From Candidatus Eiseniibacteriota bacterium (GTDB taxonomy: Bacteria; Joyebacterota; Joyebacteria; Joyebacterales; Joyebacteraceae), in assembly GCA_030622115.1 (NCBI GenBank), contig JAUXGN010000018.1:1-52514 (forward strand): a DNA stretch of 52,514 nucleotides. The letters run 5' to 3'. Both the position numbers and the translations under genes were made by a program. Numbering within the stretch: the first letter of the stretch is position 1; every line of letters starts with the position of its first letter. Below, one piece after another: positions 11,201-28,286 of this stretch. The notes under the pieces were generated by a model. The model was not told the DNA's origin. It did not search any database and saw nothing but the letters and a program-made list of their open reading frames with translations.

Positions 11201-14200
11201 ATGCGACGACATATCCCGATTCTGATACTGCTCGTTCTCCTGCTTGCCTGCGGCACCGCCGCATGCAAGACGTACAACAGCCCATACATCGACGGGCACG
11301 TCACTGAAGATGAGAACGATTGGGAGCCCGATGAGCTGGGCGTGGAAGACCCGGACAACGACAACCGTTGGGGATCAAGTGACGGTGATCTGGTCGATCT
11401 CTATGTCACCTGGGATGCCGATAGCCTCTATGTCGGCATCACGACCGTCAACGGTCCGGGTGGGTATGGGAACGGCTACCTCCTTTTCATAGATACCGAC
11501 GCGCAGAACGGGATCACAGGAGCAACGGACTTCTCGATCGCCGACTTCTACGCGCGGAATCTTACGTTCAGCACAATGGGCGCGGATGTGATCATGGGCG
11601 GCTGGAATCTACCCGGCGTCTTTGATATCAAGCATTGCTCCGACCCGACGAGCACCACGCCGGTCGACGAGACCTACTCTCAGTGTAATCCCGGTTGGAA
11701 GCACATTGAGGCCCGGATATCATGGAACGGCCTCTTTGGACTCGGTCGGGGAGTGGTGCCCGATGGCACCACGCTCAGGTTCATCGCTGCGATCGTCGGA
11801 GGCGATGGTTCGGGTGCGTACGACGCTATGCCGACATCATCCACCGGCGCCGAATCTGATGCGAGCACGCCGTGGGATGCTTTCACAGATCTCGACAACT
11901 ACTACGAGACCGTCGTGGACGCCGATGCAGACGGCGTGCCGGATGAGGGATTCCCCGCCGGAGGCTCCATATCCGGAACAGTGACACTCGACGATTCTAA
12001 TGATCTCACAACGGTCGTCACCGTCACGGCCTGGAGTGGTGGAGGGGCCGTTGAGTCGGCCGATGCCCCGCCCGGCGGCGGCGACTACACCATCTACCTC
12101 GTTCCGGACGGCGGCTACGACGTTGTGGCGACCGGCGAGTCGTATCTCTCCATCACGGTCGAGGATGTGACCATTGTTGATGAGGCCGAGATCACGGGGA
12201 TCGATTTCGCGCTGACCAAGGTCACCGGCCGCGTCGAGGGGCAGGTGGCTCTCTCCGGAGGTCCAGCCACCGACGTCACGGTGACGGTCTATGATGCGGA
12301 GACGGGGGAGGCGGGGGGAGACGGTCCATACGTCGTGGCCGGTGGTTCAGGCAGCTTCTCCATAGCAACCGTCGTCGATGGCGACTGGGATGTGGTCGCC
12401 GAGGCGATGGGATATGTGGATGCAGAGATCCCGGCAACCGTCAGCGGTGGCGACACCCTGGGTGTCGGTACGCTGACGCTCCCGGTTGTCGAGGCAACGC
12501 ACTTCGCCTACGTGGACTCACTCGGCAGCACCATCTACGGCGTGTCGACAACGGTCAGCATTCCGGACAGCGGTCTCTACTACTATGCGGAAGCGTGGCT
12601 TGAACCGCGGGACGACGACGAGCGGGTGGCGTATTGGGATGACGGTTTCATCGACAGCGTTTCGATTTCGGCTACACGTCTCGACCCGGCTCATCCGCCT
12701 CTTGGGAACGTGGTCATCGCCGACACGAACGGCGTGGTACTTGATCCTCCCGCCATCACTGGAGACATGTTCGTGGGTGGACGCGCCGGCTTCCTCGTCG
12801 CCAACGACGAGATTGAGATCCTGAGAGTGCTCGCTACGACTGAGAGACTCGTGAATGTCCTCGAGGTGGGAATAGGCGCGCCGGCCCCCACGAAGCTCAT
12901 GCTTGAGAGTGACAGCTTTGAGATAGCCGCCGGCCACGGTGTGGCGACGATCACCGGGCAGCTCATCGACGCGAGCGGAAACAACGCCCCCGTCGCCGGA
13001 CTGAACGCGACCATGACGGCCTTAGGTGTAGGCGGCAGTTTCAGTATGACCGTGGTGGAGACGAATCCGAACGGTTGGTTTGAGGTTGAGTTTTCCGGGA
13101 CTGTTGCAGGCGCCGCCTCTGTGACGACGGTGATCGATCCGAGTTCAGAGTTTGCTTCGATAGATATCGACACGCTGGCCATCGTTATCGAGCCCGGTGA
13201 GGGGGCGCTCGTTGAGCTGGCGGCATCACCGACGGCACTTCGGGCCGGTGAGACGGCGGTGCTCACGGCATCGGTAGTTGATGAGTGGGGCAACTCAGTG
13301 GACACTGCGGGCTTAAGCATCGCACTCGTGGCGACACCCGAGGAACTTGTGGCAGCGATCGACACGCCTATCGTTACGGATGCGGACGGCGTCGCTGTGG
13401 GAACGATCGAAGTCGGCGCAAACTACGGCATCATCGAGATCGTGGGAAATGCAGTGGACCTTCCTGTGGAGACGGTCTTCCTGCCGGTGGATGCTACGAT
13501 CATAGCGGTCGATGAAGAGGCGCCGGAATCCGACGACGACCACAACAGCAACGAAGGCGTGGACCTGACCATACTCCACGCGACAAACGGCGCAGACACA
13601 TTGGTAGTGACGCTCGATTTCAGCTCAGACTGGGACGGCGTCCATGTTGGTCTGGTAATTGAGGCGAACGGCGATGCGGACGGAGCGACACCCGAGCCGT
13701 TCACCTTCCCCATAAGCTATGGGCATGATCTTCTGCCCGACTACGCATTTACCTACAAGTACGCATCTGAGGACTACGCCGACCTGAGAAAGTGGAGCGG
13801 GAGCGGCTGGCAGTTCTACGACCACGTGAACGAGATATGGGTCACCGACTGGGTGGAAGGCGTGGCCCTCACCGCGTGGATTGCGAAGAGCGCCGAGAAA
13901 GTGGTGTTCCGCGTCCCGCTTGCAGCGATCGAGGCCGCTGTCGGTGATACGCTGGGGCTCGAAGCGTATGTCATGCAGGAGACCGACGGGGAGAAGCGAG
14001 CGGCCCTCGACTCGGTGCCGCACGACGCCACGCACGATATGGAACCCGAGGTCGGTGAGTGGTGGGAGACGGCCACGACGCCCGTGACGCTTACCAACTA
14101 CGCCGACTACGTCGTGGTGAGCGAGGGGTCTGCACCGGGGCTCGCCAACGGAACGGCCGGTCCCTCGCCGGCAGAGCCGGGTGATGTCGTAACCTACAGC

Positions 14201-16552
14201 ATTGAAGTGATGGACACAGGTGGAGGCATCGGTGATGTTTTCCTGAACCTCTCGGATATCGGAGGGGAGCCTCTTGTCAGAATGCTGGACGACGGTGAGG
14301 GAGTGGACATGACAGGCGGAGACGGTGTCTACACTGTTGCTGACACTCTCACGTCGTCCGCGTCCGACGGCGAACACACCATGACCGTAATGGCCAGAGA
14401 CGTTACCAACGTCTGGTCGACGACCGCCGGAATCACCCTGATCGTGGACAACCCGGCAACGGCCTTGAGACAGTTCACTGACGCGGAAGGGGATGACCAC
14501 GGTCCGAACCAGACGGACGCGAGCGGCAATCCGGTGAGCGGTCTCTACTATCATTACCCAACCAATCTCGTCTTCTTCCCGGGCTCGTTCGACATAACAA
14601 GCTTCGAGATCTTTGCCGACGGCGACTGGCTCGTCTTCAGAACCTACGTCGCGGAACTCATGGATCATCGGGAGGCCGGAGCCGCGGACTGGGGTGCACC
14701 GCAGCCGAGCGAGCAGACGTGCGACGACCCGTACCGTACAGACCTGAACCTCCAGAAGATCGACATCTACATCGATGCGACGGAAGGGGCCGGCTCAACC
14801 AGCGGCTTCCCGAACCGGTATGTCGATGTTGCGAGCGTCGATGCGTGGGACTACGGCATATCGATAGAGGGATGGGGCAAGTGGTTCGTCAACTCGAACG
14901 ACTCGAACTCATCTGCGAACTGGAGTCTCTTCAAGAACGATAGTGACATCGCGATGTGCGACAACTACGAAGAGGATTTCATCGACGTCCGGGTGCGGCG
15001 CGACCTCTTCGGAGATGACGCGGATGAAGACACGGATATAGGCAACTGGGATATCATTGTATGCATCTCGTCGCACGACGGTGAAACGTCGGACTCGAAC
15101 TTGGGAGGCATACGCTGGATCAACAGCAGCATCGCGGAGTGGCAGTTCGGCGGTGGCCGTGACAGCGAGGGTGGTCGCGACCGCGACGCGAACCTGATAG
15201 ATATCGCTGTGTCGCCGGGCGAGGGTAAGGCGCCGGGACGTACTCAGGAGGAGATGCTTGATTACACAACGGCGGACGCGGAGCAGCGGTTTGATGAGAG
15301 CAAGGTTGCCTGCCTGCTCGAGGCGAGCTTCGCTGAGGACTTCTCGCCGCCCATCATAGGCGAGTTCGAGAGTCGCAGATCGGACGAGCACGTTCCTGTT
15401 GAGGGCGAGGAGACGATAGAGCACATCCACTGGCTGGCGCTCGACGGCGCTCCGGCCGTCTTCTGGACGACGATCATCGATCCCGTATCCGGCGTCGAGA
15501 GCGCACGGTTCTTCTGGAACACGCTGGGGGACACGACCCGTCACGCCGTGGACATGGTGAATCTTGCCGGTGACGTCTGGGCAGCGAACGTGGCGCGCGC
15601 CGACATTGTGGCGGTGGCGAGCGAGGTAGACTTGAATGTCACCGGCATGGGTCGGATCATCGTCGGCTACATACATGCGACCGACAAGTCATCAAATGAG
15701 AATGACATATGGGCCGGTCCCTTTGAGCTGGGAATTCCCGAGCCGTGGGCGGAGTCGCAACGCGTAGCCTGCGTGGACACATCGCGGGCGGACGAGGAGC
15801 CCATCTTCATCTTCCAGGATGGGACGGTCGTGTCTGTGGATGAAGAGAGTCTCCCGACCGAAGCGCGCGACGATCTTGCATTGGTTCTCACACCCCTGGA
15901 CGCCGCGCTGGCCGACCTCTCCAACATTCGTGGTGACATGGAGTTTGTGGGGACGTCGCGGACGGTCACACTCGAGACCCTTGATGGTGTGGAGATGGGG
16001 CTTGAGGGTCCTGCAACCGTGAAGCTCCACTACTCGGAGTACGATGTCGGCTCTCTCGACGAGACGAAGTTTGGGCTCTTCACGTGGGTGACGGAGACCG
16101 AGCGCTGGATTCTCAGAGGAGCCGCGAACAGCCCGGCGAGCAACACGGTAGGCGCCGTGACGGATGTGCTGGGTCTCTTCGGGGTCTTCTTCTGGAACGG
16201 GCTTGATTTCGACGATGCCTTGGGGCTTTCGGGCGTCATCTCCGAGCCGAATCCATTCTCACCCAACGGGGACGGCATCTACGATTCCACCACGATCACG
16301 TTCTATCTCGGTCGGGAAGCCGACCATGTCAATGTCGAGTTCTACGATCTCTCCGGACGTCTCGCCCGCCGGCTTGTCTGGCACCAGCCTACGGAGTTCA
16401 CCGGCTGGCTCCAGGGGAGCATCGACTGGGACGGTACCGATGAGAACGGCCACGTTGTGCCGTACGGCATCTATGTGATGAGAGTGGAAGCGAAGTTCAA
16501 GACGGAACCGACCTACGAGCGGGTCAACCGCCCAGTCGTTGTCATCAAGTAG
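11201..16552 (+). CDS. Giant secreted multidomain protein: DOMON-like, Ig-like and glucodextranase-C-like modules with FlgD-type tail
   Basis: The 1783-residue protein starts with a signal sequence (MRRHIPILILLVLLLACG); LLAC could be a lipobox, but ordinary Sec cleavage after AAC is not excluded. Residues about 25-240 form a CBM9/DOMON-like sandwich (YVTWDADSLYVGI, LLFIDTDAQNGITG). Two carboxypeptidase-regulatory-like Ig folds follow (SISGTVTLDD near 256, GRVEGQVALSGG near 345). Later parts include a second DOMON-like region near 785-950, a PSPAEPGDVVTYSIEV Ig fold near 980, and a glucodextranase C-terminal-like module near 1085-1360 ending with the RTQEEML segment also seen in the protein at 25037. 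The final 100 residues (SEPNPFSPNGDGIYD, FYDLSGRLARRL) are a FlgD-type sorting or assembly module. No catalytic domain was recognised. As first gene of the alpha-glucan locus it may be a surface glycan-binding scaffold (inferred). GAAGAGG precedes the start. Confidence 0.82.
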   Translation: MRRHIPILILLVLLLACGTAACKTYNSPYIDGHVTEDENDWEPDELGVEDPDNDNRWGSSDGDLVDLYVTWDADSLYVGITTVNGPGGYGNGYLLFIDTDAQNGITGATDFSIADFYARNLTFSTMGADVIMGGWNLPGVFDIKHCSDPTSTTPVDETYSQCNPGWKHIEARISWNGLFGLGRGVVPDGTTLRFIAAIVGGDGSGAYDAMPTSSTGAESDASTPWDAFTDLDNYYETVVDADADGVPDEGFPAGGSISGTVTLDDSNDLTTVVTVTAWSGGGAVESADAPPGGGDYTIYLVPDGGYDVVATGESYLSITVEDVTIVDEAEITGIDFALTKVTGRVEGQVALSGGPATDVTVTVYDAETGEAGGDGPYVVAGGSGSFSIATVVDGDWDVVAEAMGYVDAEIPATVSGGDTLGVGTLTLPVVEATHFAYVDSLGSTIYGVSTTVSIPDSGLYYYAEAWLEPRDDDERVAYWDDGFIDSVSISATRLDPAHPPLGNVVIADTNGVVLDPPAITGDMFVGGRAGFLVANDEIEILRVLATTERLVNVLEVGIGAPAPTKLMLESDSFEIAAGHGVATITGQLIDASGNNAPVAGLNATMTALGVGGSFSMTVVETNPNGWFEVEFSGTVAGAASVTTVIDPSSEFASIDIDTLAIVIEPGEGALVELAASPTALRAGETAVLTASVVDEWGNSVDTAGLSIALVATPEELVAAIDTPIVTDADGVAVGTIEVGANYGIIEIVGNAVDLPVETVFLPVDATIIAVDEEAPESDDDHNSNEGVDLTILHATNGADTLVVTLDFSSDWDGVHVGLVIEANGDADGATPEPFTFPISYGHDLLPDYAFTYKYASEDYADLRKWSGSGWQFYDHVNEIWVTDWVEGVALTAWIAKSAEKVVFRVPLAAIEAAVGDTLGLEAYVMQETDGEKRAALDSVPHDATHDMEPEVGEWWETATTPVTLTNYADYVVVSEGSAPGLANGTAGPSPAEPGDVVTYSIEVMDTGGGIGDVFLNLSDIGGEPLVRMLDDGEGVDMTGGDGVYTVADTLTSSASDGEHTMTVMARDVTNVWSTTAGITLIVDNPATALRQFTDAEGDDHGPNQTDASGNPVSGLYYHYPTNLVFFPGSFDITSFEIFADGDWLVFRTYVAELMDHREAGAADWGAPQPSEQTCDDPYRTDLNLQKIDIYIDATEGAGSTSGFPNRYVDVASVDAWDYGISIEGWGKWFVNSNDSNSSANWSLFKNDSDIAMCDNYEEDFIDVRVRRDLFGDDADEDTDIGNWDIIVCISSHDGETSDSNLGGIRWINSSIAEWQFGGGRDSEGGRDRDANLIDIAVSPGEGKAPGRTQEEMLDYTTADAEQRFDESKVACLLEASFAEDFSPPIIGEFESRRSDEHVPVEGEETIEHIHWLALDGAPAVFWTTIIDPVSGVESARFFWNTLGDTTRHAVDMVNLAGDVWAANVARADIVAVASEVDLNVTGMGRIIVGYIHATDKSSNENDIWAGPFELGIPEPWAESQRVACVDTSRADEEPIFIFQDGTVVSVDEESLPTEARDDLALVLTPLDAALADLSNIRGDMEFVGTSRTVTLETLDGVEMGLEGPATVKLHYSEYDVGSLDETKFGLFTWVTETERWILRGAANSPASNTVGAVTDVLGLFGVFFWNGLDFDDALGLSGVISEPNPFSPNGDGIYDSTTITFYLGREADHVNVEFYDLSGRLARRLVWHQPTEFTGWLQGSIDWDGTDENGHVVPYGIYVMRVEAKFKTEPTYERVNRPVVVIK

Positions 16553-16567
16553 CGAGGAATGTCTGAC

Positions 16568-17443
16568 ATGAACGGGAAGATATGGGTCTTCTGTGCCGCG
16601 CTTCTGGTTGTGCCCCTTGGCGCTGGGGCCAACTTCATCGAGATGGAGACGGGCGCGCGCGCTATGGGCATGGGCGGCGCCTTCGTCGCGGTGGCGGATG
16701 ACGTGACGGCCCTTCACTGGAATCCCGCGGGTCTCGTCTCGCTCGACGGGATCCAGTTGTTCGGGATGCGCACGAGTGTCTACAGTGTCGAGGGGTTGGC
16801 TGAGGACTCGGCAATGGCCGGGTACGGGAACGGTCGCCGGGGTATGGCGGCCGGGTGGATGAGGACGAGTGCCGATGAACTCTACAGTGAGGACACGATC
16901 CTTCTGGGGTACGGAGGCCGAACGCCGATCGACCATCTGGCCGTAGGAATGAGCATCAAGCGCTTCTCAATAGACGCGCCGGGCTACGACTACTACAACG
17001 ATCCATCGTTCGACTCGGGTGGGGACGCAGGGTACGCTGTCGATCTGGGAGGCCTCTACCGCAGGGACACGTGGTCCGTCGGCGCGGCACTGAGGAATCT
17101 CGGCGAGCCGGAGCTTCAACTGATAGAGGCGTCGGAAGTCTCCGATCCCATCTACATGGAACTCCGCCTTGGTGGGACGTACACCTTCCGCAAGGTCATG
17201 CTGATGAGTGTCGAGTGGCGAGCACCGCGCGAGGCGCCCGAGTTCTACGACACGAAGGGATCACTGAATCTCGGCACCGAGGTATGGTTCTACGATGCGT
17301 TCGCGCTTCGTGCGGGAATGAACCGCGACAGGATCACAGCTGGACTCGGCATCAAGTCGAAGAACCTCAGACTGGACGTAGCGCTGCTGTCGGAGCGGAG
17401 GATAGGCAGTATGTACCGTCTATCGGCTGTGCTTCTGTGGTAG
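16568..17443 (+). CDS. PorV/UPF0164-type outer-membrane beta-barrel
   Basis: The 291-residue protein has a signal peptide (MNGKIWVFCAALLVVPLGAG) and the typical N-terminal segment GARAMGMGGAFVAVADD followed by ALHWNPAG, a hallmark of the PorV/UPF0164 branch of FadL-like barrels. The rest alternates in beta-strand fashion and ends YRLSAVLLW with a terminal aromatic residue. In Bacteroidetes PorV shuttles type IX substrates to the surface, so it may serve the FlgD-tailed protein encoded just upstream; this is inferred. An earlier ATG at 16559 is in frame, but GAGGA (16554-16558) touches it and sits 9 bases before ATG 16568, so the latter is preferred. Confidence 0.8.
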   Translation: MNGKIWVFCAALLVVPLGAGANFIEMETGARAMGMGGAFVAVADDVTALHWNPAGLVSLDGIQLFGMRTSVYSVEGLAEDSAMAGYGNGRRGMAAGWMRTSADELYSEDTILLGYGGRTPIDHLAVGMSIKRFSIDAPGYDYYNDPSFDSGGDAGYAVDLGGLYRRDTWSVGAALRNLGEPELQLIEASEVSDPIYMELRLGGTYTFRKVMLMSVEWRAPREAPEFYDTKGSLNLGTEVWFYDAFALRAGMNRDRITAGLGIKSKNLRLDVALLSERRIGSMYRLSAVLLW

Positions 17444-17477: not shown

Positions 17478-19043
17478 GTGACACGTAACGGCAAAATCGG
17501 GGTCTCGCGTCCGACCGCGTTCATCGTGGCCGCGTGTGTGGCAGCCATCGTGATTCTTGCCATACCCGCCAAAGCGGTCACCACGCTCGAGGGATACTCC
17601 GATCTGATGTTCAAGCTGACGAGCGGGAGGGGTGGTGATCCGACATGGCAGCTCAACAACCCGAGACTCTACGCAGAGTTCAGGCTCAAGAGCAGTCCCT
17701 GGACGGACATAGACACTTTCCTCAAGGTTTCGGCCGAATCGGATCGGTGGGCTGAGGACGTGAAGGAGACGCGTGTCTTCGTGAATGAAGCGCACATGCG
17801 TTTCTGCGGAAGCAGGGTTGAGGCGCATCTCTTCACCGGACAGGACCGCTTCTGGTTGAACGAGCCGCTTCTGGCCATCGTCGACCAGGGCGAGGTCAAG
17901 CACGACGACTGGGGCGTGAGGGCGCAGGGCATACGGCTCGATTTCTGGGACGTGTTCGGGTTTCACGGTGCGGCCTTCTACAGCGAGCGAAGCGACTACG
18001 TCTCCATGGGTTTCTCCGAAATGCCCGACGAGCTGGAGTACTATCCGGAGGCCACGGAGGCGGACTCGATGTCGAGTAGTACCGACGATTATCGGGGTCT
18101 AAGACTGAACCGCCGCTTTCTGGGTGACAGGGGGCTCCTCGGAACCACCTATGCGAGAAGGGACTTCAATGACACCCCTTTCCACGGCAGCTCCGGGGGC
18201 TACAGCGAGGTCATCGCTCTTGATTCAGAGCTTGCCCTGGGAGAGATCATCCCATTCTTCACGCGGTTCGGCCGCGTTACATGGGCCACCGAATATGGCC
18301 GCAACACCTCCGGCTGGGTTGACGACTCAGACGAGTCCGGTCTTGCCGGATTCAAGACGGAGATCCGGGATATCCGAGCCGGCCCCATCAGGTTCCTCGC
18401 TTCATACGGAGACTACGGGGAGCGTTTCTACGCCGACCGCCTTGCGCATTGGGATCGGCGCAACCTCAACGGCTACACCAAGTACTATGCGGAGGCGCAC
18501 TACCGCGTGTCCAGGAAGGCCATCAACTTCAAGTACTGGACCTTCAAGGAAGAGCCGAAGGACTACAGCACTTCCGAGTATGGTGTGCGGCAGGAATGGG
18601 GAACCGAGGCCTACGTTGAGTTTGTTAACGGCTTCACTGGGAAGGCGGAGTACAAGGTCCACGAGAACAAGGACGGTGTCTGGCCGAATCTCTTCTTCGA
18701 GATCACCGGCGAGAACAGGCTCGTCAAGTTGCGCACACAATTCCGTATGAGAGACATTGATACAGTCTACGAGGTTTCGGCGTACGGCTTCGAAGCGAAC
18801 GTCAACCTGAGCGACGACTGGAAGTTCTATGCGAGAGTAATGAATGTGAGTGAGTGCACGGAATCGCGGCAGACGGCCTTTGCCCAGATCAGGTACCTGG
18901 GTTGGTCGGGCGGGGAGTTCTTTGTTGAATACGGCAATCCGGATCACAGCAATGAACTCGTGAACGACGGGGACTTCGTGAGCCACGGTTCCGATGCGAT
19001 CATAGAGAAGGTCTTCAAGGCCTTTGTGAGAATCTACTACTAG
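17478..19043 (+). CDS. Outer-membrane porin-like beta-barrel
   Basis: This 521-residue protein has a signal sequence (AACVAAIVILAIPAKA) and then repeated amphipathic strands with many aromatic residues, for example FHGAAFYSERSDYVSMGF and KYYAEAHYRVSRKAINFKYW, ending FVRIYY. A C-terminal aromatic residue is the usual signal for barrel assembly by BAM. No family is recognised, but the length and strand pattern match large substrate-specific porins. The GTG start at 17478 is fixed by GAAGGAG. It lies 34 bases after the PorV-like gene and 29 before the CBM48-barrel gene, so maltodextrin passage is a reasonable guess. Confidence 0.72.
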   Translation: MTRNGKIGVSRPTAFIVAACVAAIVILAIPAKAVTTLEGYSDLMFKLTSGRGGDPTWQLNNPRLYAEFRLKSSPWTDIDTFLKVSAESDRWAEDVKETRVFVNEAHMRFCGSRVEAHLFTGQDRFWLNEPLLAIVDQGEVKHDDWGVRAQGIRLDFWDVFGFHGAAFYSERSDYVSMGFSEMPDELEYYPEATEADSMSSSTDDYRGLRLNRRFLGDRGLLGTTYARRDFNDTPFHGSSGGYSEVIALDSELALGEIIPFFTRFGRVTWATEYGRNTSGWVDDSDESGLAGFKTEIRDIRAGPIRFLASYGDYGERFYADRLAHWDRRNLNGYTKYYAEAHYRVSRKAINFKYWTFKEEPKDYSTSEYGVRQEWGTEAYVEFVNGFTGKAEYKVHENKDGVWPNLFFEITGENRLVKLRTQFRMRDIDTVYEVSAYGFEANVNLSDDWKFYARVMNVSECTESRQTAFAQIRYLGWSGGEFFVEYGNPDHSNELVNDGDFVSHGSDAIIEKVFKAFVRIYY

Positions 19044-19072: not shown

Positions 19073-21121
19073 ATGAGAATGAGTCATCTGATGTGGGTGC
19101 TGGTTCTGATCGCGGCGGTGGTGGCGTCACCCGCGCACGCCGGGTTCTCCAGCGTGGACGCCGGGGTCGAATTCACGTACAGCGACCCGTATGCCGCAAG
19201 CGTGAGTCTGGCCGGCGCGTTCAACAACTGGGACGTGAACGCTGACCCGATGACGGTGGACGACGAGGGTGTGTGGAGTGTGGTCATTGATCTGGCGCCT
19301 GGAGTCTACGAGTACAAGTTCGTTCTGAACGGCTCGCAGTGGGTGGCGGATCCGGACAATCCGAAGACCGCCGGAGACTATGGCAACTCGGAGATGACGG
19401 TCGGTGAGGACGGAGGCGTGGTCGTGGCCGCTCAAGTCGCGCCCATCTCGAACACCGCGGTGAACTCGCGCGTGAGTCTGAACGGCTGGTATCGGGCAAC
19501 CTACGACACAGAGAGCGATCTTCCAAGCGATCCGAGGTGGAGACTCACACGACCCGAGCACGAGGTCTTCGTCTCGGTCAACCCAACCGTGACTTCAAAG
19601 GTCACGGGAGGAGCGACACTGAGGCTTGCCACAGGCGCCGGTGACATCAAGGAGATCCACGCCGATCTATACAGCGGCTACGCTAGGCTCGAGGGCGGGC
19701 CGTTCACTGTGACCGGGTTCTACAATGAGGAGCGCGTGCAGTTCGACAATCCTCTTGAGACCCTCGGCCACACGGATCTCACGGGGACGATCGCCGAGGA
19801 GCACATCCCGTACGGTTGTGGAACTCAGGGAGCGATTATCGAGAGCGACTTCTGGGGTCTGGATCTGGCTGCCGTCTATGCCAACGCGTACGATTACGAT
19901 ACGTACAACGATCCGTCCACATACGACAACACCGACACGGACCTGATCGGTGTCAGACTCAAGCGGCCTCTCGGGCCTCTCGGGCTCGGAGCGACCTACG
20001 TGTCCTTCAGAGATGGTTGGTGGATGGACTGGCAGGGTGACAACTACAGTCCTCATCTTCAGGAGTTCATCGACGAGACCGGGTCGTCAAGCGACTGGTT
20101 CGAGCTTTCAAATGAAGAGCGTTACATGGGCGTTGATCTCGATTGGCAGGTTCACGAGGCGCTACTCGGCCTGCGGGCGGAGTACTCAAGCTATCGGTAC
20201 GCGAGCATCTGGAACATGGGAAACAGGGAAGAGGTGGATGGGGATGACTATGGCAACGGCGTCATCGGCGTAGAGGCCGGCGAGATGACGGGGTCGCTCG
20301 TTAAGCTGGAGCTTGAGTCGAGGCCGCTTGAATCCCTGCGTCTGGATCTGGAGGTAGGAAGAACGAGCATGGACGGGATGGACGCAGGCGAGGAGTATGT
20401 CGCCTTCGGTTCTCCTGTCTGGGCGGGAGATCCCCTTCGCCGGTATACGGAGGTTCGCTTCGACGCATCGCCGCTCTCCGTGAACGTCTACGACGCACTC
20501 CCCGAGCGGAACGACTGGCTCTACGAGCTGGAGGCGGACTTCACCTTCGGGATCTTCGAACTCCTGTTCGAGTACGACCGCGCGACCTACGACTGGACGT
20601 ACGCGCCCGACTCGACCGATGTCTCCCTCGCCTGGGAAGGAACCGTATCGAGGGTGGCCCCCCGCTTCCGCGCCAACATCAGTGAAGACAAGCTCTGGAT
20701 CGAGGTCGAGGCTGAGGCGATGAGCTACGACTTGGACGATGGGCTGTGGGACGCCTACGACACCACTGAGGTCGACTTCCGCGCGTGGTTCTCGTTCGCC
20801 AGGGACTGGGGGATCTTGCTGGATGCAAGGCAGATAACGTACAAGGATGTCCCGGACAGCACCGGCGCAGGCTCAGATGAGTCATTCATGCAGCCGTACA
20901 TGGCCCTCGTCTATAGCCCGCGGAAGAACATCGAGTTGAGGCTCGGTTACGGAGTGAATCCTCTGGGCTATGTCGATGTACCCGTCGAGGGTCGCGCCAA
21001 CGGACGTGAGCGGTGGCGCTCGGACTATCTTTGGAATCACAGCGCGGCCGGCGTCCTCGACGCCGAGCAGGCGCTTGCGGATGCCAGAACGATCGGCCTC
21101 ATGGCCGTCATTTCGTTCTAG
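19073..21121 (+). CDS. CBM48 glycogen-binding domain fused to an outer-membrane beta-barrel
   Basis: The 682-residue protein begins with a signal peptide ending ASPAHA. Residues about 27-115 form a CBM48/AMPK-type glycogen-binding E-set fold: VSLAGAFNNWDVNADPM, then GVYEYKFVLNGSQWVADPDN. The remainder (about 120-682) has long amphipathic strands and acidic turns such as DYDTYNDPSTYDNTDTD, and ends RTIGLMAVISF with a terminal Phe, as expected for a transmembrane barrel. The fold implies a porin or receptor with a built-in alpha-glucan-binding module facing the periplasm or surface. I know of no described family with this architecture, so the function is inferred. GGAG at 19061-19064, 8 bases before ATG 19073, supports the start. 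Confidence 0.78.
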   Translation: MRMSHLMWVLVLIAAVVASPAHAGFSSVDAGVEFTYSDPYAASVSLAGAFNNWDVNADPMTVDDEGVWSVVIDLAPGVYEYKFVLNGSQWVADPDNPKTAGDYGNSEMTVGEDGGVVVAAQVAPISNTAVNSRVSLNGWYRATYDTESDLPSDPRWRLTRPEHEVFVSVNPTVTSKVTGGATLRLATGAGDIKEIHADLYSGYARLEGGPFTVTGFYNEERVQFDNPLETLGHTDLTGTIAEEHIPYGCGTQGAIIESDFWGLDLAAVYANAYDYDTYNDPSTYDNTDTDLIGVRLKRPLGPLGLGATYVSFRDGWWMDWQGDNYSPHLQEFIDETGSSSDWFELSNEERYMGVDLDWQVHEALLGLRAEYSSYRYASIWNMGNREEVDGDDYGNGVIGVEAGEMTGSLVKLELESRPLESLRLDLEVGRTSMDGMDAGEEYVAFGSPVWAGDPLRRYTEVRFDASPLSVNVYDALPERNDWLYELEADFTFGIFELLFEYDRATYDWTYAPDSTDVSLAWEGTVSRVAPRFRANISEDKLWIEVEAEAMSYDLDDGLWDAYDTTEVDFRAWFSFARDWGILLDARQITYKDVPDSTGAGSDESFMQPYMALVYSPRKNIELRLGYGVNPLGYVDVPVEGRANGRERWRSDYLWNHSAAGVLDAEQALADARTIGLMAVISF

Positions 21122-21135
21122 GGGAGGTGGAGGCG

Positions 21136-21879
21136 ATGAAAAGAGCTCGACTCGCAGTTCCCGCACTTCTCGTAGCCCTGGCGCTCGCGCTTTCTTCCTG
21201 TGCCGGAGTTCTGAGTGTGATAGAGGACCGGCTCCCGCCGCCGCACGAAGTTGAGGGAGGGTTCTCATTCGACTACTACGCGCCCTCGGCGCGACAGATC
21301 ACGCTGGCCGGCAACTTCAACAACTGGGGTGGAACGGAAGGCGGAGGGCGATACGATCCGGTGATCGATCCCATGTCCGATCCTGACGGTGACGGGATAT
21401 GGAGCATCGTCGTGCCGCTTCCTCCCGGACGGTATCAGTACAAGTTTGTGATTGACGGGGGACTTCGGTGGGAGCGGGATCCGAACAATCCGGACGTTGC
21501 CTACGAGGGCGGGTTTGAGAACTCCGTCGTCCTTGTCCCACCGTCCATCAGCTACGATCCCGAACGGGTGACCGGGACCGTGATCAGTGGTGAGGACACC
21601 GCCGTCGAGAGTTCCGTTCAAGCCGTCGAGGTTTCGTTCGCACTCGACATGCCCGATGCAGGCGAGGTCTCTGTGGCCGGTGCTTTCAATGACTGGGATG
21701 CGAACACCGACCCGATGGTCCTGGGTGATGACGGCCTCTGGCGTGCGACACTCGATATCAGACCGGGCACCTACGAGTACAAGTTCGTCGTCGATGGGAC
21801 CTGGATCGAAGATCCCCTGAACCCCGAGTTCGTTGAAGACCCGTACGGGGGGAAGAACTCGATCCTGACGGTAGAGTGA
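21136..21879 (+). CDS. Lipoprotein with two CBM48 domains
   Basis: The 247-residue protein has a classical lipoprotein signal (LALALSSC, lipid-carrying Cys22). It contains two CBM48/E-set domains, about 40-135 (ITLAGNFNNWGGTEGG, GRYQYKFVIDG) and about 160-247 (VSVAGAFNDWDANTDP, GTYEYKFVVDGTW), ending PYGGKNSILTVE. The same ending occurs in the GH57 enzyme at 25827, which indicates a shared module. With no catalytic domain, it should be an alpha-glucan-binding lipoprotein, playing the part that SusE/SusF play in Bacteroidetes though unrelated in sequence (inferred). GGGGAGG at 21121-21127, 8 bases before ATG 21136, selects this start, after the previous stop codon. Its stop overlaps the GTG of the permease gene. 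Confidence 0.85.
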   Translation: MKRARLAVPALLVALALALSSCAGVLSVIEDRLPPPHEVEGGFSFDYYAPSARQITLAGNFNNWGGTEGGGRYDPVIDPMSDPDGDGIWSIVVPLPPGRYQYKFVIDGGLRWERDPNNPDVAYEGGFENSVVLVPPSISYDPERVTGTVISGEDTAVESSVQAVEVSFALDMPDAGEVSVAGAFNDWDANTDPMVLGDDGLWRATLDIRPGTYEYKFVVDGTWIEDPLNPEFVEDPYGGKNSILTVE

Positions 21880-22844
21880 GAAGCCGGGATACAGGAGGCG
21901 GAGAAGCCCGAAGGATCTGGTCCCGGACGCTTACGTCGCGCGGTCGGGAGAACCTGACCGCGTACGCGTTCCTCGCGCCGTTTCTCATCATCTTCGCTGT
22001 CTTTCTCGTCTACCCGGTCGTCTACTCGCTCTATCTGGCGCTCCACCAGGTGCCGAGCGACTCGTTCGATGTCTTTGGCGGTCTTCAGTTCGTCGGTCTC
22101 CGAAACTTCGCGAAGCTCTTCACTGATGTGAAGTTCTGGTGGTCGGTGCTCATGACTCTGTACTACGCCGCGCTGATTATCCCCTCCGGAATCGCCGTCT
22201 CTCTTGCTCTAGCGCTCCTGCTGAACAACCGGCTAAGGGGCGTAGCCATCTACAGAAGCGCGTTCTTCATGCCGTACGTTCTCGACATGCTCGTGATCGG
22301 CATCGTCTGGACGCTCATCTACAGTCCGCACATAGGCATCTTGGTCAGGCTCTTTGAGTCGGTCGGCATCACCGCGTTTTCCGAGAAGGGTTTTCTGGGC
22401 ATGTCCTCGATTGCGATGCCGAGCGTCGTCTTCGCGAACGTTCTCAAGGGCGCCGGCTTTGGCATGATCCTCTATCTTTCGGCAATCCAGAACATCCCGC
22501 GATCGCTCTACGAGGCCGCGGAGATCGACGGAGCGACGTCGTGGAGGCGCTTCACGGCGATCACGCTCCCACTCGTCAAACCGATCACTTTCTTCATGGT
22601 CGTGATAGGGACCATCGGGGCCCTGAACGCGTTCGTCGAGGTGTACGCGATGACGTCCGGAGGCCCGAGTGTTGATGTGGGTGGACGAGCGCTCGGGGCG
22701 ACGTGGGTGACCGGCTACTACGTGTTCGACGCATTCTACAATCAGTGGCGTCTGGGCTACGCATCTGCGATGTCGTACGTGCTTCTGGCGCTCACGATGA
22801 TCGTGACGGTTGTGAACAGACGTTTCCTTGGGGAGAAGGACTAG
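21876..22844 (+). CDS. ABC sugar transporter permease, MalF/UgpA type
   Basis: The 322-residue inner-membrane protein has six predicted helices and the EAA loop EAAEIDGATSWRRFTAITLP that contacts the ATPase. It belongs to the carbohydrate-uptake transporter 1 permeases. The GTG start overlaps the stop of the lipoprotein gene (GTGA), which implies translational coupling. The approximately 30 residues before the first helix are basic and polar. The following genes encode the second permease and the binding protein; the shared locus with CBM48, GH57 and GH133 genes suggests maltodextrin as substrate. Confidence 0.92.
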   Translation: MRSRDTGGGEARRIWSRTLTSRGRENLTAYAFLAPFLIIFAVFLVYPVVYSLYLALHQVPSDSFDVFGGLQFVGLRNFAKLFTDVKFWWSVLMTLYYAALIIPSGIAVSLALALLLNNRLRGVAIYRSAFFMPYVLDMLVIGIVWTLIYSPHIGILVRLFESVGITAFSEKGFLGMSSIAMPSVVFANVLKGAGFGMILYLSAIQNIPRSLYEAAEIDGATSWRRFTAITLPLVKPITFFMVVIGTIGALNAFVEVYAMTSGGPSVDVGGRALGATWVTGYYVFDAFYNQWRLGYASAMSYVLLALTMIVTVVNRRFLGEKD

Positions 22845-22847
22845 GTC

Positions 22848-23675
22848 TTGAGTGTTCGCCGGACATCAGTTGCGAGAAGCACAGCCCTCTATTTTGGACT
22901 GACGGTGGCCGCTGTGGTCGTGCTGTTCCCGTTCTTCTGGATGGTCGTTACGGCGTTCAAGGAGCCGGGCCAGGCTTTCAGCTCGGAGATACTGCCGTCG
23001 CAACCGACATTAGAGAACTTCCGCCGCGTCCTGTCCGATTTCGGTTTCGGGCGCTACTTCGCGAACAGCGTGATCGTCGCAACGACCGCGGCTCTCTTCG
23101 CGACGATGTTTGCGACATTTGCGGGGTACGTTTTCGCTAAGAAGCAATTCTTCATGAAGGAGAGGTTGTTCACTTTCCTCCTGATCTCATTGATGATCCC
23201 GGGCATGATGTATGTCGTGCCGCAGTTCGCGATCATCAACAAGCTTGGATGGATGAACACCTATCGAGCGATGATTATCCCGCATCTGGCCAACGTCTTC
23301 GGGCTCTTCCTGATGCGCCAGTACATGATGACGATCCCGAACGAACTCATTGACGCAGCGAGAATAGACGGCGCCGGGGAGTGGCAGATCTTCCGCAAGG
23401 TGATGATCCCTCTGTCGATCCCCATAATCGCTACGCTCTTTCTTCTGACCTTCCAGTTTCACTGGAACAACTTCCTCTGGCAGCTTATTGTGGCGAACGT
23501 CGAACGGCTCTACACTGTGCCTGTCGGGCTTGCGATGTTCAAAAGCGCGCACGAGGAGCTATACACGTTGAAGATGGCGGGGTCGTGTATCTCGGTCCTG
23601 CCGATTGCGGTGTTGTTCTTCTTTGCGCAGCGGTACTTCATTGAGGGTATGACGATGGGCGCGGTGAAGGAGTAG
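22848..23675 (+). CDS. ABC sugar transporter permease, MalG type
   Basis: This 275-residue permease has the family start (LFPFFWMVVTAFKEPGQAF), six helices, the EAA motif DAARIDGAGEWQIFRKVMIP and a C-terminal RYFIEGMTMGAVKE typical of MalG-like proteins. The TTG start at 22848 is set by GGAGAAGGA; only three bases separate it from the MalF-type stop. It would pair with the upstream permease. No ATPase gene of the MalK/UgpC type is present in the window. Confidence 0.93.
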   Translation: MSVRRTSVARSTALYFGLTVAAVVVLFPFFWMVVTAFKEPGQAFSSEILPSQPTLENFRRVLSDFGFGRYFANSVIVATTAALFATMFATFAGYVFAKKQFFMKERLFTFLLISLMIPGMMYVVPQFAIINKLGWMNTYRAMIIPHLANVFGLFLMRQYMMTIPNELIDAARIDGAGEWQIFRKVMIPLSIPIIATLFLLTFQFHWNNFLWQLIVANVERLYTVPVGLAMFKSAHEELYTLKMAGSCISVLPIAVLFFFAQRYFIEGMTMGAVKE

Positions 23676-23736
23676 ACGTGCCGCGGGTGACAAGGGGGAG
23701 ATTCCGATGGTGAACCATGACACGGGAGGATTCTCG

Positions 23737-24975
23737 ATGACGAAGAAGCTTCTGTCGGCGACTGTGATTCTGGCGGCTGCGGTCGTGCTGATCGGACAGG
23801 GTTGCGGGGGCGGGCAGGAGGGAGCCGCGACGCTCACTATATGGGAGACCTACAACGACGAGGAGCATCCGGTCTTCAAGGAGATGGTACGGCATTTTGA
23901 GGAGACGCACGCGGGAGTGAGCATAGACGTAGTGAGATTGCCGTTCGCAGGTGCTGAGCCGAAGATCCAGACGGCTCTCACGACGAAGACCGAGCCTGAT
24001 ATCGCGCGTGTCGACGTGTCGTTCCTTCCGAAGCTGGCAAGCAAGAATGCGCTTGCTGTTCTGGACGACTATGTGCCGGAGGAGTTTCTGGCCGAGGTTT
24101 TCCCCGTTGCGCTCAAGAGCTGCATGTATGAAGGCTCTCTCTACGGTCTCCCGGATCAGACCAACGGCCTCTGCCTCTTCTACAATAGAGAACTCTTCCG
24201 CGAGGCCGGGCTCGATCCCGACCGCGCTCCAGCGACCTGGGATGAGCTCATAGCCTATGGGAAGAAACTGACGCGGCGTGAGGACGGCGTCTTCGGCCTG
24301 GGGCTCAGGAACTCACTCTGGTGGTCGTTTCCGTTCTTCAATACCTACGGAGCGGAGTTCCTGTCGGAGGACGGCGCCCGGTGTCTTCTGAACAGCCCCG
24401 AGGGTGTCGCGGCGTTCCAGCTCAAGGTGGATCTTTTCGAGAAGCACGGGATCGAGGGCGGCGCGTGGCGCGCCGGAGGCATCCAGAACGATCTCGGTTT
24501 TCAGAACGAGCGCTATGCGATGATAATGAACGGGCCGTGGGCCGTTAAGAGCCTGAAGAGGACCGGCATCGACTTTGGTGTTGGCCTTATTCCCGCGGGA
24601 CCGGCCGGCTCCCACACAAATGTTGGAGGAAACGATCTCGTCGTCTTCAAGTCGTGTCCGAATCCGGAACTCGCAGCCGAGTTCCTCATGTTCGTCGCGA
24701 ATGAGGAGAACCAGCGAAACTGGGCACTGACCCTCGGACAGATCCCGGTGAACCTGAAGGCCATGGACGCGATCACGTCGGAGGAGCATCCGTATCTCGC
24801 GGTCTTCGTCGAGCAGATGAGAAGCGCGATCCCACGACCGCCAACGCCGTACTATCCGGAGATCGAGAATCTGATGATCCCCGAGATGCAGGCGGCTCTC
24901 GATGGATCGAAGACGGTGAAGGCCGCGCTCGATGTTGCCGTCAAAGAGATAGACAAGCTCTTGGCCGGGGAGTAG
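23737..24975 (+). CDS. Extracellular solute-binding protein family 1 (maltodextrin-type)
   Basis: The protein (412 residues from ATG 23737) starts with a lipoprotein-like signal: MTKKLLSATV, a hydrophobic stretch, and a Cys in GQGCGGG, although GQGC is a weak lipobox. It continues with LTIWETYNDEEHPVFKEM, GLPDQTNGLCLFYNRELF, and ERYAMIMNGPWAV, all typical of family 1 sugar-binding proteins. Two ATGs have good ribosome sites: 23737 (GGGAGGA) gives a clean signal peptide, whereas 23707 (GGGGGAG) adds ten polar residues; the former is preferred. It would deliver oligosaccharides to the two permeases upstream. Confidence 0.92.
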   Translation: MTKKLLSATVILAAAVVLIGQGCGGGQEGAATLTIWETYNDEEHPVFKEMVRHFEETHAGVSIDVVRLPFAGAEPKIQTALTTKTEPDIARVDVSFLPKLASKNALAVLDDYVPEEFLAEVFPVALKSCMYEGSLYGLPDQTNGLCLFYNRELFREAGLDPDRAPATWDELIAYGKKLTRREDGVFGLGLRNSLWWSFPFFNTYGAEFLSEDGARCLLNSPEGVAAFQLKVDLFEKHGIEGGAWRAGGIQNDLGFQNERYAMIMNGPWAVKSLKRTGIDFGVGLIPAGPAGSHTNVGGNDLVVFKSCPNPELAAEFLMFVANEENQRNWALTLGQIPVNLKAMDAITSEEHPYLAVFVEQMRSAIPRPPTPYYPEIENLMIPEMQAALDGSKTVKAALDVAVKEIDKLLAGE

Positions 24976-25036: not shown

Positions 25037-25813
25037 ATGAGAAGGATCACAGTGGTGCTGATGCTGTCAGCGCTCATGCTGTGCTCGGCGGCGCACGGCG
25101 CAGAGCCGTTGTCGGTCTGGCAGGACGCGGCCGGTGACGACACGGGCGATGGTGACTACACCTATCCGACGAATGCCGCTTTTGGGGAAGGTGGTGAGGC
25201 CGACATCCTTTCCTTCTCGATCGAGAAGGAGAATGGGAATCTCATCTTCGTGTTCCATATGCGTAGCCTCGTGGATCCGTGGGAGATCGGGAACAGACTC
25301 ACGATGGTGGCCGTGGCCATCGACACAGAAGAGGGTGGCGACAAGGAACTCCGGCGCAACGCGAACGTGCTTCTCGCGGCGCCGTCGGAGTACCAGATCT
25401 TCGCAGCCGGTGAGACCGTAGCGGTTATCGATGCGGAGTCGGAGCTGGTCGATATCGGTGCGACGGTCACGACGGACATGGCGAAGAACATCATCCGGAT
25501 ATCGGTTCCCATTGCTCAGATAGACGGGGCCGCATCAGCCTGGCGCTTCACGCCCGCTGCGGGACTTCAGGACGACTACGGCGCGGGCGGGCTTGGAGAT
25601 TTCCGCGAAGTCAGAGCCGAGCCGGAGGAGTGGCGAGGTGGGGGCGGCCACGATCTGGCGATAGATCCCAACATCTACGACATCATCGTCCCGGAAGTGA
25701 AGAAGCTCTTCGGTTTCTTAGGCGGCAAGCAGAGAACACAGGAAGAGATCCTTGGCGCATATAGTCTGGAGCGGGGCGAGTACGTTGTGCTGCCGGCGCT
25801 TGAGATCAATTAA
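25037..25813 (+). CDS. Secreted glucodextranase C-terminal-like (DOMON-type) protein
   Basis: The 258-residue protein has a signal peptide (MLSALMLCSAAHG) and then one sandwich domain: DDTGDGDYTYPTNAAF, ADILSFSIEKENGNLIFVF, LTMVAVAIDTEEGGDKE and AWRFTPAAG. This matches the C-terminal module of glucodextranases and some pullulanases (PF09985 type), which binds carbohydrate. The end, KQRTQEEILGAYSLERGEYV, is the same segment found near residue 1360 of the giant protein at 11201. Mature Cys is absent, so it is probably soluble in the periplasm or secreted. GGGGGGAAG precedes ATG 25037. It lies between the binding protein and the GH57 enzyme. Confidence 0.75.
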   Translation: MRRITVVLMLSALMLCSAAHGAEPLSVWQDAAGDDTGDGDYTYPTNAAFGEGGEADILSFSIEKENGNLIFVFHMRSLVDPWEIGNRLTMVAVAIDTEEGGDKELRRNANVLLAAPSEYQIFAAGETVAVIDAESELVDIGATVTTDMAKNIIRISVPIAQIDGAASAWRFTPAAGLQDDYGAGGLGDFREVRAEPEEWRGGGGHDLAIDPNIYDIIVPEVKKLFGFLGGKQRTQEEILGAYSLERGEYVVLPALEIN

Positions 25814-25826
25814 GGGAGCGGACATC

Positions 25827-28286
25827 ATGAGGCCAGGACAACGATCGGCGCTCACCGCGTCATTTGCTCTGTTGCTTGTGATCGCCATCTCCATGGCAGC
25901 CGCCTCGGTTGGCGCCTCCGCGCCTGTGGCCGTAGACGGTGGTGTTCTTTTCACGTTCTCGAAGCCGAGCGCCCGGACGGTGCATCTCGCCGGGATGTTC
26001 AACGGGTGGGATCCGAGCGCCCTGCCGATGAGCGATGAGGATGGGGACGGCGTGTGGGAGGTCGTGCTTGAGCTTCCGACTGAGAGGACCTTTGAGTACA
26101 AGTTTGTGGTCAATGATGGAGAACTCTGGGAGTTCGATCCCAGTAATCCGGAGCGGGTCGATGACAACCACGGAAGCTACAACACCGTGGTGTCGATCGC
26201 GGCTGACGGGAGCGTCGTGCTGGGACATCTTGATGGAGCTCAGTCGTTCGATCCGGTCGTGGGCGACCTTGAGTCGCACGGGCGACCACTGAACGTCGCC
26301 ATCGTCTGGCACCAGCACCAGCCGAAGTACCTGAAGGATCTCTCCACAGGCGAGTACGCGGAGCCGTGGGTGAGGATGCACGCCATCAAGGACTACTACG
26401 ACATGGTGGCGATCCTTGATGACTATCCCGACATCCATTTCACAGTGAACCTGACACCGATCCTGCTCGTGCAGCTGGAGGAGCTACTGGTGGCTTGGGG
26501 TGAGGGCAGGCCGACCGATGCGTATCTCAGAATGACGCTCAAGGATGCGGGGGAGCTCACCGAGGAGGATCAGGTGTTCCTTCTCACGCATTTCTTCAAT
26601 GCCAACTGGGACAACATGATCCACATATGGCCGCGCTACAAGGACCTGAAGGAGAAGAAGGGCGGCGATTCATACGAGGAACTCGCGGCTGCAGCACGCA
26701 CGTTCTCCGAGCAGGACTGGCGCGACCTTCAGGTGTGGTTCAACCTTGCCTGGTTCGATCCGGATTTTCAGGAGGGAGACGTCGAACTCGTCGACGGCAG
26801 GACCGTTACCGTGCGGCATCTCATCGAGAAGGGGCGGGACTTCACGGCTGCCGAGAAGCGTGAGGTTCTCGCCGTGCAGCGGGCGATCATGGAGAACGTT
26901 GTGGCCGTCCATCGCCTGGCGCAGGAGCGGGGGCAGCTCGAGATCATGACGACACCGTTCTATCATCCGATCCTCCCGCTCATCTACGACACCGATCTTG
27001 CGCGCGTGGCGATGCCGGGAACAGCACTCCCCGCGACGAGGTTCAATCACCCGGAAGACGCGCTTGCCCACGTGGAGCTGGCTACCGACTACTATGAGAA
27101 GCTGTTCGGTCGTCGTCCTCTGGGGCTATGGCCCGGAGAGGGTTCCGTGTCGCAGGAGATCATCGGTACGGTCGAGGCCGGCGGGTTCTCATGGATGGCC
27201 TCGGACGACCAGGTGCTTCAGAAATCACTCGGCGGCGGTCCGCTGGCTACCCGACAGAGGTACCAGATGTACTGGGCAGTGGATGGTGACGCCAGGGTCG
27301 CGATGATCTTCCGGGACCACGGACTGTCCGACGAGATAGGGTTCAACTTCAGCAAGATGGACGGTGTGGCGGCGGCGAACTCAATGATGCGAAGCCTGCA
27401 CGGGATTCACAAGGAACTCGCCGGTGACGATCGCGACTACATCGTCCCGATCATTCTTGACGGTGAGAACGCGTGGGACTGGTACCGGCACGACGGCAAG
27501 GAGTTCTTCCATTCGTGGTATGAGCAGATGTCGGAGGCCGATTGGCTGCGCACTGTCACGGTCGCCGAGTACCTTAAGGAGCATCCGCCGACGGCAACCA
27601 TCCAGCAGCTCTGGGCCGGCTCGTGGATCAGCAGCGATTTCGGGACCTGGATTGGAGAGGACGAGGAGAATGTCGCGTGGGACTACCTTGCCACAGTCCG
27701 CGACTATCTTGCCGATAAGGACGAGAGCGGCACCGTGGATGCGAACGTCCTGTCCCGCGCATACGATGAGATCTATGCGGCAGAGGGAAGCGACTGGTTC
27801 TGGTGGTACGGGACCGACCAGGACTCCGCGAACGATGGAGCATTTGACGAGATCTTCCGCGGGACGCTCAGCAACGTGTATGTGATTCTTGGAGACAGGC
27901 CGCCGTCCTTCCTGTCGCAGGCGATATCGAGCGCTGGAGGAGGTGGTGCCGGAGCGGGCGTGATGGCGCGCGCCGCGGCCGCGGGGGACGCCGAGCTTCT
28001 TCGAGGCCCGGTTCTTCTCGATGACGGGATCCTCTTCAGCGTGAGGCAGGAGTCTGCAGGTAGCGTGAACGTAGCCGGCCAGTTCAATGGTTGGAGCACC
28101 GACGCCACGCCGATGTCCGATGAGGACGGAGACGGCATCTGGATCGCGGTCGTGGATCTCGATCCGGGCCAGTACGAATACAAATTCGTGATTGACGGCG
28201 GCGCCGTGTGGATCGCTGACGAAGGCAATCCCGAAAGCGTTCCCGATCCCTACGGCGGCAAGAACTCGCTCGTCACCGTGGAATAG
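25827..28286 (+). CDS. Secreted GH57 alpha-glucanase (amylopullulanase type) flanked by CBM48 domains
   Basis: The 819-residue protein carries a signal peptide (ALLLVIAISMAAASVGASA), an N-terminal CBM48 domain (about 37-125), a GH57 catalytic barrel (about 155-690) and a C-terminal CBM48 domain (about 728-819). All five GH57 regions are visible: HQHQP (162-166), GQLEIMTTPFYHPILPL (369-385), LWPGEGS with the likely nucleophile Glu438, IFRDHGLSDEIGF holding the likely acid Asp497 or Asp502, and ILDGENAWDWY. The match is to amylopullulanase-like members that cut alpha-1,4 and often alpha-1,6 bonds. A Gly/Ala linker (700-722) precedes the last domain. GGGAG 8 bases before ATG 25827 selects this start; an earlier in-frame ATG at 25752 lies inside the preceding gene. 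Confidence 0.93.
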   Translation: MRPGQRSALTASFALLLVIAISMAAASVGASAPVAVDGGVLFTFSKPSARTVHLAGMFNGWDPSALPMSDEDGDGVWEVVLELPTERTFEYKFVVNDGELWEFDPSNPERVDDNHGSYNTVVSIAADGSVVLGHLDGAQSFDPVVGDLESHGRPLNVAIVWHQHQPKYLKDLSTGEYAEPWVRMHAIKDYYDMVAILDDYPDIHFTVNLTPILLVQLEELLVAWGEGRPTDAYLRMTLKDAGELTEEDQVFLLTHFFNANWDNMIHIWPRYKDLKEKKGGDSYEELAAAARTFSEQDWRDLQVWFNLAWFDPDFQEGDVELVDGRTVTVRHLIEKGRDFTAAEKREVLAVQRAIMENVVAVHRLAQERGQLEIMTTPFYHPILPLIYDTDLARVAMPGTALPATRFNHPEDALAHVELATDYYEKLFGRRPLGLWPGEGSVSQEIIGTVEAGGFSWMASDDQVLQKSLGGGPLATRQRYQMYWAVDGDARVAMIFRDHGLSDEIGFNFSKMDGVAAANSMMRSLHGIHKELAGDDRDYIVPIILDGENAWDWYRHDGKEFFHSWYEQMSEADWLRTVTVAEYLKEHPPTATIQQLWAGSWISSDFGTWIGEDEENVAWDYLATVRDYLADKDESGTVDANVLSRAYDEIYAAEGSDWFWWYGTDQDSANDGAFDEIFRGTLSNVYVILGDRPPSFLSQAISSAGGGGAGAGVMARAAAAGDAELLRGPVLLDDGILFSVRQESAGSVNVAGQFNGWSTDATPMSDEDGDGIWIAVVDLDPGQYEYKFVIDGGAVWIADEGNPESVPDPYGGKNSLVTVE

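Follow-up and report, generated by a model that had tools for sequence, protein, structure and literature searches.

The gene described here lies within a window of 52,514 nucleotides (the whole stretch of DNA that was analyzed) from a genome of 2.63 Mb in 98 contigs. Judging from its relatives, the window would belong to Candidatus Effluviviacota, a phylum described from marine seeps (PMC11323493). Twelve genes between 11201 and 33085 lie on one strand, the spacing between neighbors ranging from -4 to 61 bases, and the gene of interest, which joins a CBM48 module to a predicted outer-membrane barrel (the CBM48-barrel), is the fourth. The features are as follows.

11201..16552, + strand: secreted protein of 1783 aa with a Glucodextran_C domain and a C-terminal FlgD_ig/CHU_C-like domain (Pfam)
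16559..17443, + strand: PorP/PorV-like FadL-type outer-membrane protein (PF11751, PorP_SprF, 26 bits, cut-off 22.3)
17478..19043, + strand: barrel A, a second barrel of 521 aa without CBM48 (HHalign, barrel model, fold matches)
19073..21121, + strand: CBM48-barrel gene, 682 aa, ATG start, C-terminal end ...MAVISF (ORF list)
19073..19141, + strand: its signal peptide, residues 1-23, with a putative cleavage site between SPAHA and G (assigned by eye; the AlphaFold2 model has a helix at 6-17)
19157..19387, + strand: its CBM48 module, residues 29-105 (Pfam, AMPK alignment, conservation)
19403..19468, + strand: its low-confidence linker of ~20 residues, residues 111-132 (AlphaFold2 model)
19469..21118, + strand: its predicted 22-strand outer-membrane barrel, residues 133-682, with C-terminal Phe (model, fold matches, strand alternation, topology)
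21136..21879, + strand: lipoprotein-like protein with two CBM48 modules and the lipobox LSSC (Pfam; its start and lipobox were assigned by eye)
21876..22844, + strand: ABC sugar importer permease, MalF/UgpA type (Pfam and NCBIfam)
22848..23675, + strand: ABC sugar importer permease, MalG type (from its sequence and its place in the run; in relatives, its homologues lie next to MalF)
23707..24975, + strand: sugar-binding lipoprotein of the ABC importer (SBP_bac_1, E 2e-45)
25037..25813, + strand: secreted Glucodextran_C-domain protein (PF09985, E 1e-33)
25827..28286, + strand: secreted GH57 enzyme with a CBM48 at each end (Pfam)
28299..30935, + strand: glycogen debranching enzyme (amylo-alpha-1,6-glucosidase, GDE_C; PF06202, E 2e-66)

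The signal peptide of the CBM48-barrel is MRMSHLMWVLVLIAAVVASPAHA, with apparent cleavage before G (read by eye). Orthologues from the same family of genomes are 50-87% identical to the protein across its full length. The frame is a real gene, since third codon positions hold most of the base differences from the nearest, 87%-identical orthologue (59/34/160 by codon position), the pattern that constraint on a coding sequence would produce.

A Pfam search of the protein finds CBM_48 (PF02922) at residues 29-94 with 40.6 bits against a cut-off of 22.4 (E 3.2e-10) and AMPK1_CBM (PF16561) at residues 34-105 with 39.8 bits against a cut-off of 26.8 (E 5.2e-10), so that the HMM search proposed in the first-pass annotation detected the module above the curated cut-offs of both families. 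Alignment with AMPK beta subunits places W53, K82, and W90 at the positions of AMPK W100, K126, and W133. The AMPK module no longer binds glycogen when it carries W100G or K126Q, and binds it less well with W133L (PMC6274970). The equivalents of W53, K82, and W90 are kept in 68, 67, and 65, respectively, of 69 CBM48 copies from barrel ORFs, a set in which some copies are counted twice because a few loci overlap. The conservation of this predicted contact face supports real alpha-glucan binding. The module shares its family and its aromatic and lysine contacts with those of AMPK beta subunits and of GH13 and GH57 enzymes; those modules are attached to a kinase subunit or an enzyme, whereas here the attachment is to a membrane barrel.

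The protein was modeled with AlphaFold2 on an alignment of 22 orthologue sequences (mean pLDDT 78.8, pTM 0.69). Residues 24-110 form a small beta domain in the model, and 22 long strands occupy residues 133-681; pLDDT falls below 50 in the linker at 120-132, and confidence is also low at 234-248 and 275-283. The top 50 Foldseek matches in the PDB are all outer-membrane barrels, all of them TonB-dependent receptors (best E 5.8e-10), at ~10% identity and with TM-scores of only 0.3-0.4. We take these matches to support a large barrel, not homology, and given such TM-scores, the closure of the barrel and its number of strands depend on the model. The alternation of polar and non-polar residues along the strands is 3.52, compared with 2.04 ± 0.20 after shuffling (reached by 0 of 2000 shuffles), and is poor in the strand at 264-272. 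The usual features of an outer-membrane barrel are therefore present, namely a signal peptide, an amphipathic strand meander, and a C-terminal aromatic residue; the last residue is Phe, as first noted from the sequence itself, and the same holds for all 22 sequences of the alignment. The barrel is also strongly acidic, with a net charge of -55 (K+R-D-E), which is uninformative about a neutral glucan.

Sequence searches did not assign this barrel to any family already known. Pfam has no match for residues 124-682 (a stretch of 559 residues) at E<=10, the protein matches no NCBIfam barrel model at E<=0.01, and a PDB profile search with the barrel returned a single match at chance level (E 0.11). 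By these searches, it is a barrel without a plug, unclassified by Pfam, NCBIfam, or PDB sequence family. A soluble beta-helix or sandwich, the outcome that would have spoken against the original reading, is not supported by the AlphaFold2 model, which predicts a membrane barrel. Pfam, AlphaFold2, Foldseek, and the strand alternation together bear out the proposal that signal peptide, CBM48, and outer-membrane barrel form one polypeptide.

The neighboring genes place this protein in a glucan-related context. At the C terminus of the 1783-aa protein, FlgD_ig scores 32.2 bits, over its cut-off of 27, and CHU_C scores 23.2 bits, under its cut-off of 27. The PorP/PorV-like protein falls below the NCBIfam cut-offs (PorV_fam, 87.6 bits against 90; TIGR03519, 27.9 against 90.55), as does the sugar-binding lipoprotein with the MalE and GanS models. 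Barrel A has no Pfam or NCBIfam match, but HHalign aligns it with the CBM48-barrel (probability 95%, E 2.5e-8) over the N-terminal third of one of the two proteins, and by this profile comparison it is a distant paralogue. Its own model is of low confidence (pLDDT 64.8, with an unreliable C-terminal third), and the fold matches of this weak model are MOMP, AlgE, chitoporin, and maltoporin. No SusC/SusD pair was found among the neighboring genes scanned with Pfam between 11201 and 33085.

A survey of other genomes, also proposed at the outset, found the fusion well beyond the window. Within the window's family, 17 of 20 genomes (its own included) carry the barrel, as do 33 of 80 genomes from the phylum of genome G044 and, among 386 genomes searched, seven from further families beyond these two phyla; both phylum-scale searches used the barrel alone, without CBM48, as the query. 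Records with barrels of 28-32% identity include some named Krumholzibacteriota. In 55 species genomes of several phyla, the barrel searches found 56 such ORFs or fragments of them. CBM48 precedes the barrel in all 54 ORFs with an intact N terminus (one module in 39, two in 15); of the other two, one is truncated by a contig end (G004), and one comes from a gene split between frames, where the barrel fragment lies downstream and the CBM48 in the upstream part (G002). The CBM48 assignment is weakest in G368 (E 3e-4) and in G086/G087. No CBM48 was found in the paralogous barrel A ORFs. Because all 54 intact ORFs carry it, the fusion is no assembly join, and together with the third-codon-position bias this rules out an assembly or frame artifact. 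The CBM48-barrel fusion is old and stable.

The gene also keeps its company. The order large Glucodextran_C protein, PorP/PorV-like protein, barrel A, CBM48-barrel, and CBM48 protein recurs in Effluviviacota, in Krumholzibacteriota, and in loci of other phyla with enough flanking sequence, although some members are weak or missing in the most distant loci. The first-pass annotation had supposed a self-contained unit, and this part of its proposal does not hold, since the CBM48-barrel travels with these four partners. In the window's phylum, an ABC sugar importer and a debranching enzyme, usually with a GH57 enzyme, lie downstream in the same apparent operon. The importer was not seen beside the block in most loci of other phyla; in the eight such loci tested, the block adjoins either GH57 enzymes (L075, L077, and L078) or GH13 amylases that each carry between two and five CBM48s (L081, L082, L091, L092, and L093). 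Among these amylases, the one at L093:11897-15601 has five CBM48 modules and the one at L081:1976-5431 has three.

Several known systems offer comparisons. SusCDEFG of Bacteroidota likewise encodes a barrel, glucan-binding surface proteins, GH enzymes, and import together, and SusC has 22 strands, the number predicted here for a barrel whose best fold matches are TonB receptors, albeit at the low TM-scores given above. It differs in that no SusC plug or SusD was found among the genes scanned in the window, in that CBM48 is here part of the barrel polypeptide, and in the inner-membrane ABC importer downstream. The PF07715 plug is absent from the CBM48-barrel ORF in Pfam searches and has seven matches elsewhere in the window genome. 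In the maltoporin LamB/MalEFG system of Enterobacteria, an outer-membrane barrel likewise serves a MalFG-type ABC sugar importer, but LamB has 18 strands against the 22 predicted here, the barrel described here has no LamB match (Pfam, E<=10), and our block adds the fusion to CBM48, barrel A, the PorP/PorV-like protein, and a large surface protein. At the start of the block (11201-17443), a PorP/PorV-like gene comes directly after the gene for a large secreted protein whose C terminus has a sorting-like domain. This pair resembles SprB-SprF of Flavobacterium johnsoniae (PMC9143113), with the differences that CHU_C is here under the cut-off and FlgD_ig over it and that two large barrels and glucan modules come next. 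The window genome also contains an SprA-like type IX translocon protein (G000:C74:85760-86539). The CBM48-barrel would do at the outer membrane what Sus or maltoporin systems do there, but without the features of these that we tested (plug, SusD, and LamB). Our literature search on CBM48 in connection with outer membranes, porins, barrels, or maltodextrin turned up no title or abstract that describes a fusion of CBM48 to an outer-membrane barrel. The paper on Effluviviacota mentions starch use and GH57, and its main text does not contain the terms porin, outer membrane, or glycogen (PMC11323493).

We consider it reasonably probable that the CBM48-barrel is the outer-membrane protein of an operon for the capture and import of alpha-glucans (starch, glycogen, or maltodextrin). 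The predicted link to alpha-glucans is well supported by the operon content; from the same data and the model we infer the substrate, the pore activity, and the placement of the CBM48. In such a system, a type IX-like route involving the neighboring PorP/PorV-like protein might bring the 1783-aa protein to the cell surface, and alpha-glucan would be held there by this large Glucodextran_C protein and possibly also by the CBM48 lipoprotein. Oligosaccharides would then cross the outer membrane via the CBM48-barrel, perhaps together with barrel A. From the barrel lumen or its periplasmic mouth, the CBM48 could bind the incoming chain and pass it to the CBM48-bearing GH57 enzyme and the binding protein, or else gate the pore, and the GH57 and debranching enzymes would shorten the chain for uptake and use.

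The placement of the CBM48 follows from the predicted topology. The 11 odd gaps between the 22 predicted strands (14, 9, 33, 16, 22, 2, 44, 8, 9, 7, and 46 residues; mean 19.1) lie on one face and are longer than the 10 even gaps on the other (4, 2, 5, 2, 3, 2, 2, 3, 4, and 2 residues; mean 2.9; Mann-Whitney p 0.0008). In outer-membrane barrels, long loops face outside and short turns are periplasmic. With an even number of strands and both termini on the short-turn face, the termini, and hence the CBM48, would by this rule be periplasmic. In the model, the CBM48 is thus most likely periplasmic or within the barrel lumen rather than a surface receptor, and of the "alpha-glucan receptor-porin" initially proposed, the link to alpha-glucan stands through the operon while a receptor at the surface is doubtful. 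The ~20-residue linker could offer another path by threading the CBM48 through the barrel, which would display it at the cell surface as a receptor with the barrel as the pore beneath. This arrangement would make sense for extracellular polymers; in the model, the disordered segment at 110-132 is long enough to span a membrane barrel, and a 22-strand barrel could hold a thread. Against it stand not only the topology but also two other proteins of the block that are already available to capture glucan at the surface, namely the large Glucodextran_C protein and the CBM48 protein encoded on its own, and we regard this arrangement as unlikely.

It is also possible to see the barrel as an anchor or assembly platform for a surface glucan-binding protein within a type IX-like export and display unit, the CBM48 merely tethering glucan or enzymes. 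The block does begin with a large secreted protein and a PorP/PorV-like gene, the window genome has an SprA-like translocon, and SprB, a type B cargo of Bacteroidota, is held at the cell surface through binding to the PorP-like SprF (PMC9143113). Yet PorP/PorV-like proteins, which are 14-strand barrels (PMC9143113), already serve as such anchors, and transport better explains two more large barrels in the neighborhood of a sugar importer and glucan enzymes, which makes this reading quite improbable. That the protein is a degenerate TonB-dependent transporter with its plug replaced by CBM48 seems to us very improbable. The best fold matches are indeed 22-strand TonB-dependent receptors, and the genome encodes TonB as well as the Plug matches mentioned above; however, identity to those fold matches is ~10%, no Plug or TonB-receptor family was found at E<=1 with the whole ORF or at E<=10 with the barrel alone, and the CBM48 directly follows the signal peptide with no TonB box visible by eye. 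Because the barrel has no plug, energy coupling through TonB is unlikely.

Returning to the uptake reading, the CBM48-barrel block points to an outer-membrane alpha-glucan uptake system distinct from the known maltoporin and Sus systems. A bolder version, which we offer tentatively and think rather doubtful, is a new class of plug-less outer-membrane alpha-glucan transporter, present in several uncultured phyla and without recognizable sequence kinship to the TonB-dependent or maltoporin families, in which a CBM48 in or under the barrel would act as gate and ligand reader, in partnership with another barrel and with a capture protein displayed by a type IX system. If the uptake reading is right, Effluviviacota, Krumholzibacteriota, and other uncultured phyla share an outer-membrane alpha-glucan uptake unit that is unnamed in current family libraries, its barrel being without a Pfam or NCBIfam model. 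The unit would then be a marker of glycogen or starch use in sediment and seep communities, and it would provide a route to ask how large oligosaccharides cross the outer membrane when the gene block is without a SusCD pair.

Two orthologues are split by frameshifts, a CBM48-barrel at L004:1384-3496 (G002) and a barrel A at L028:16594-18194 (G015), through either sequencing error or pseudogene formation. The last gene of the run (30932-33085) encodes a 717-aa protein that has a weak von Willebrand A-like match; this gene shares 4 bases with the end of the one for the debranching enzyme and keeps its place next to it in relatives.
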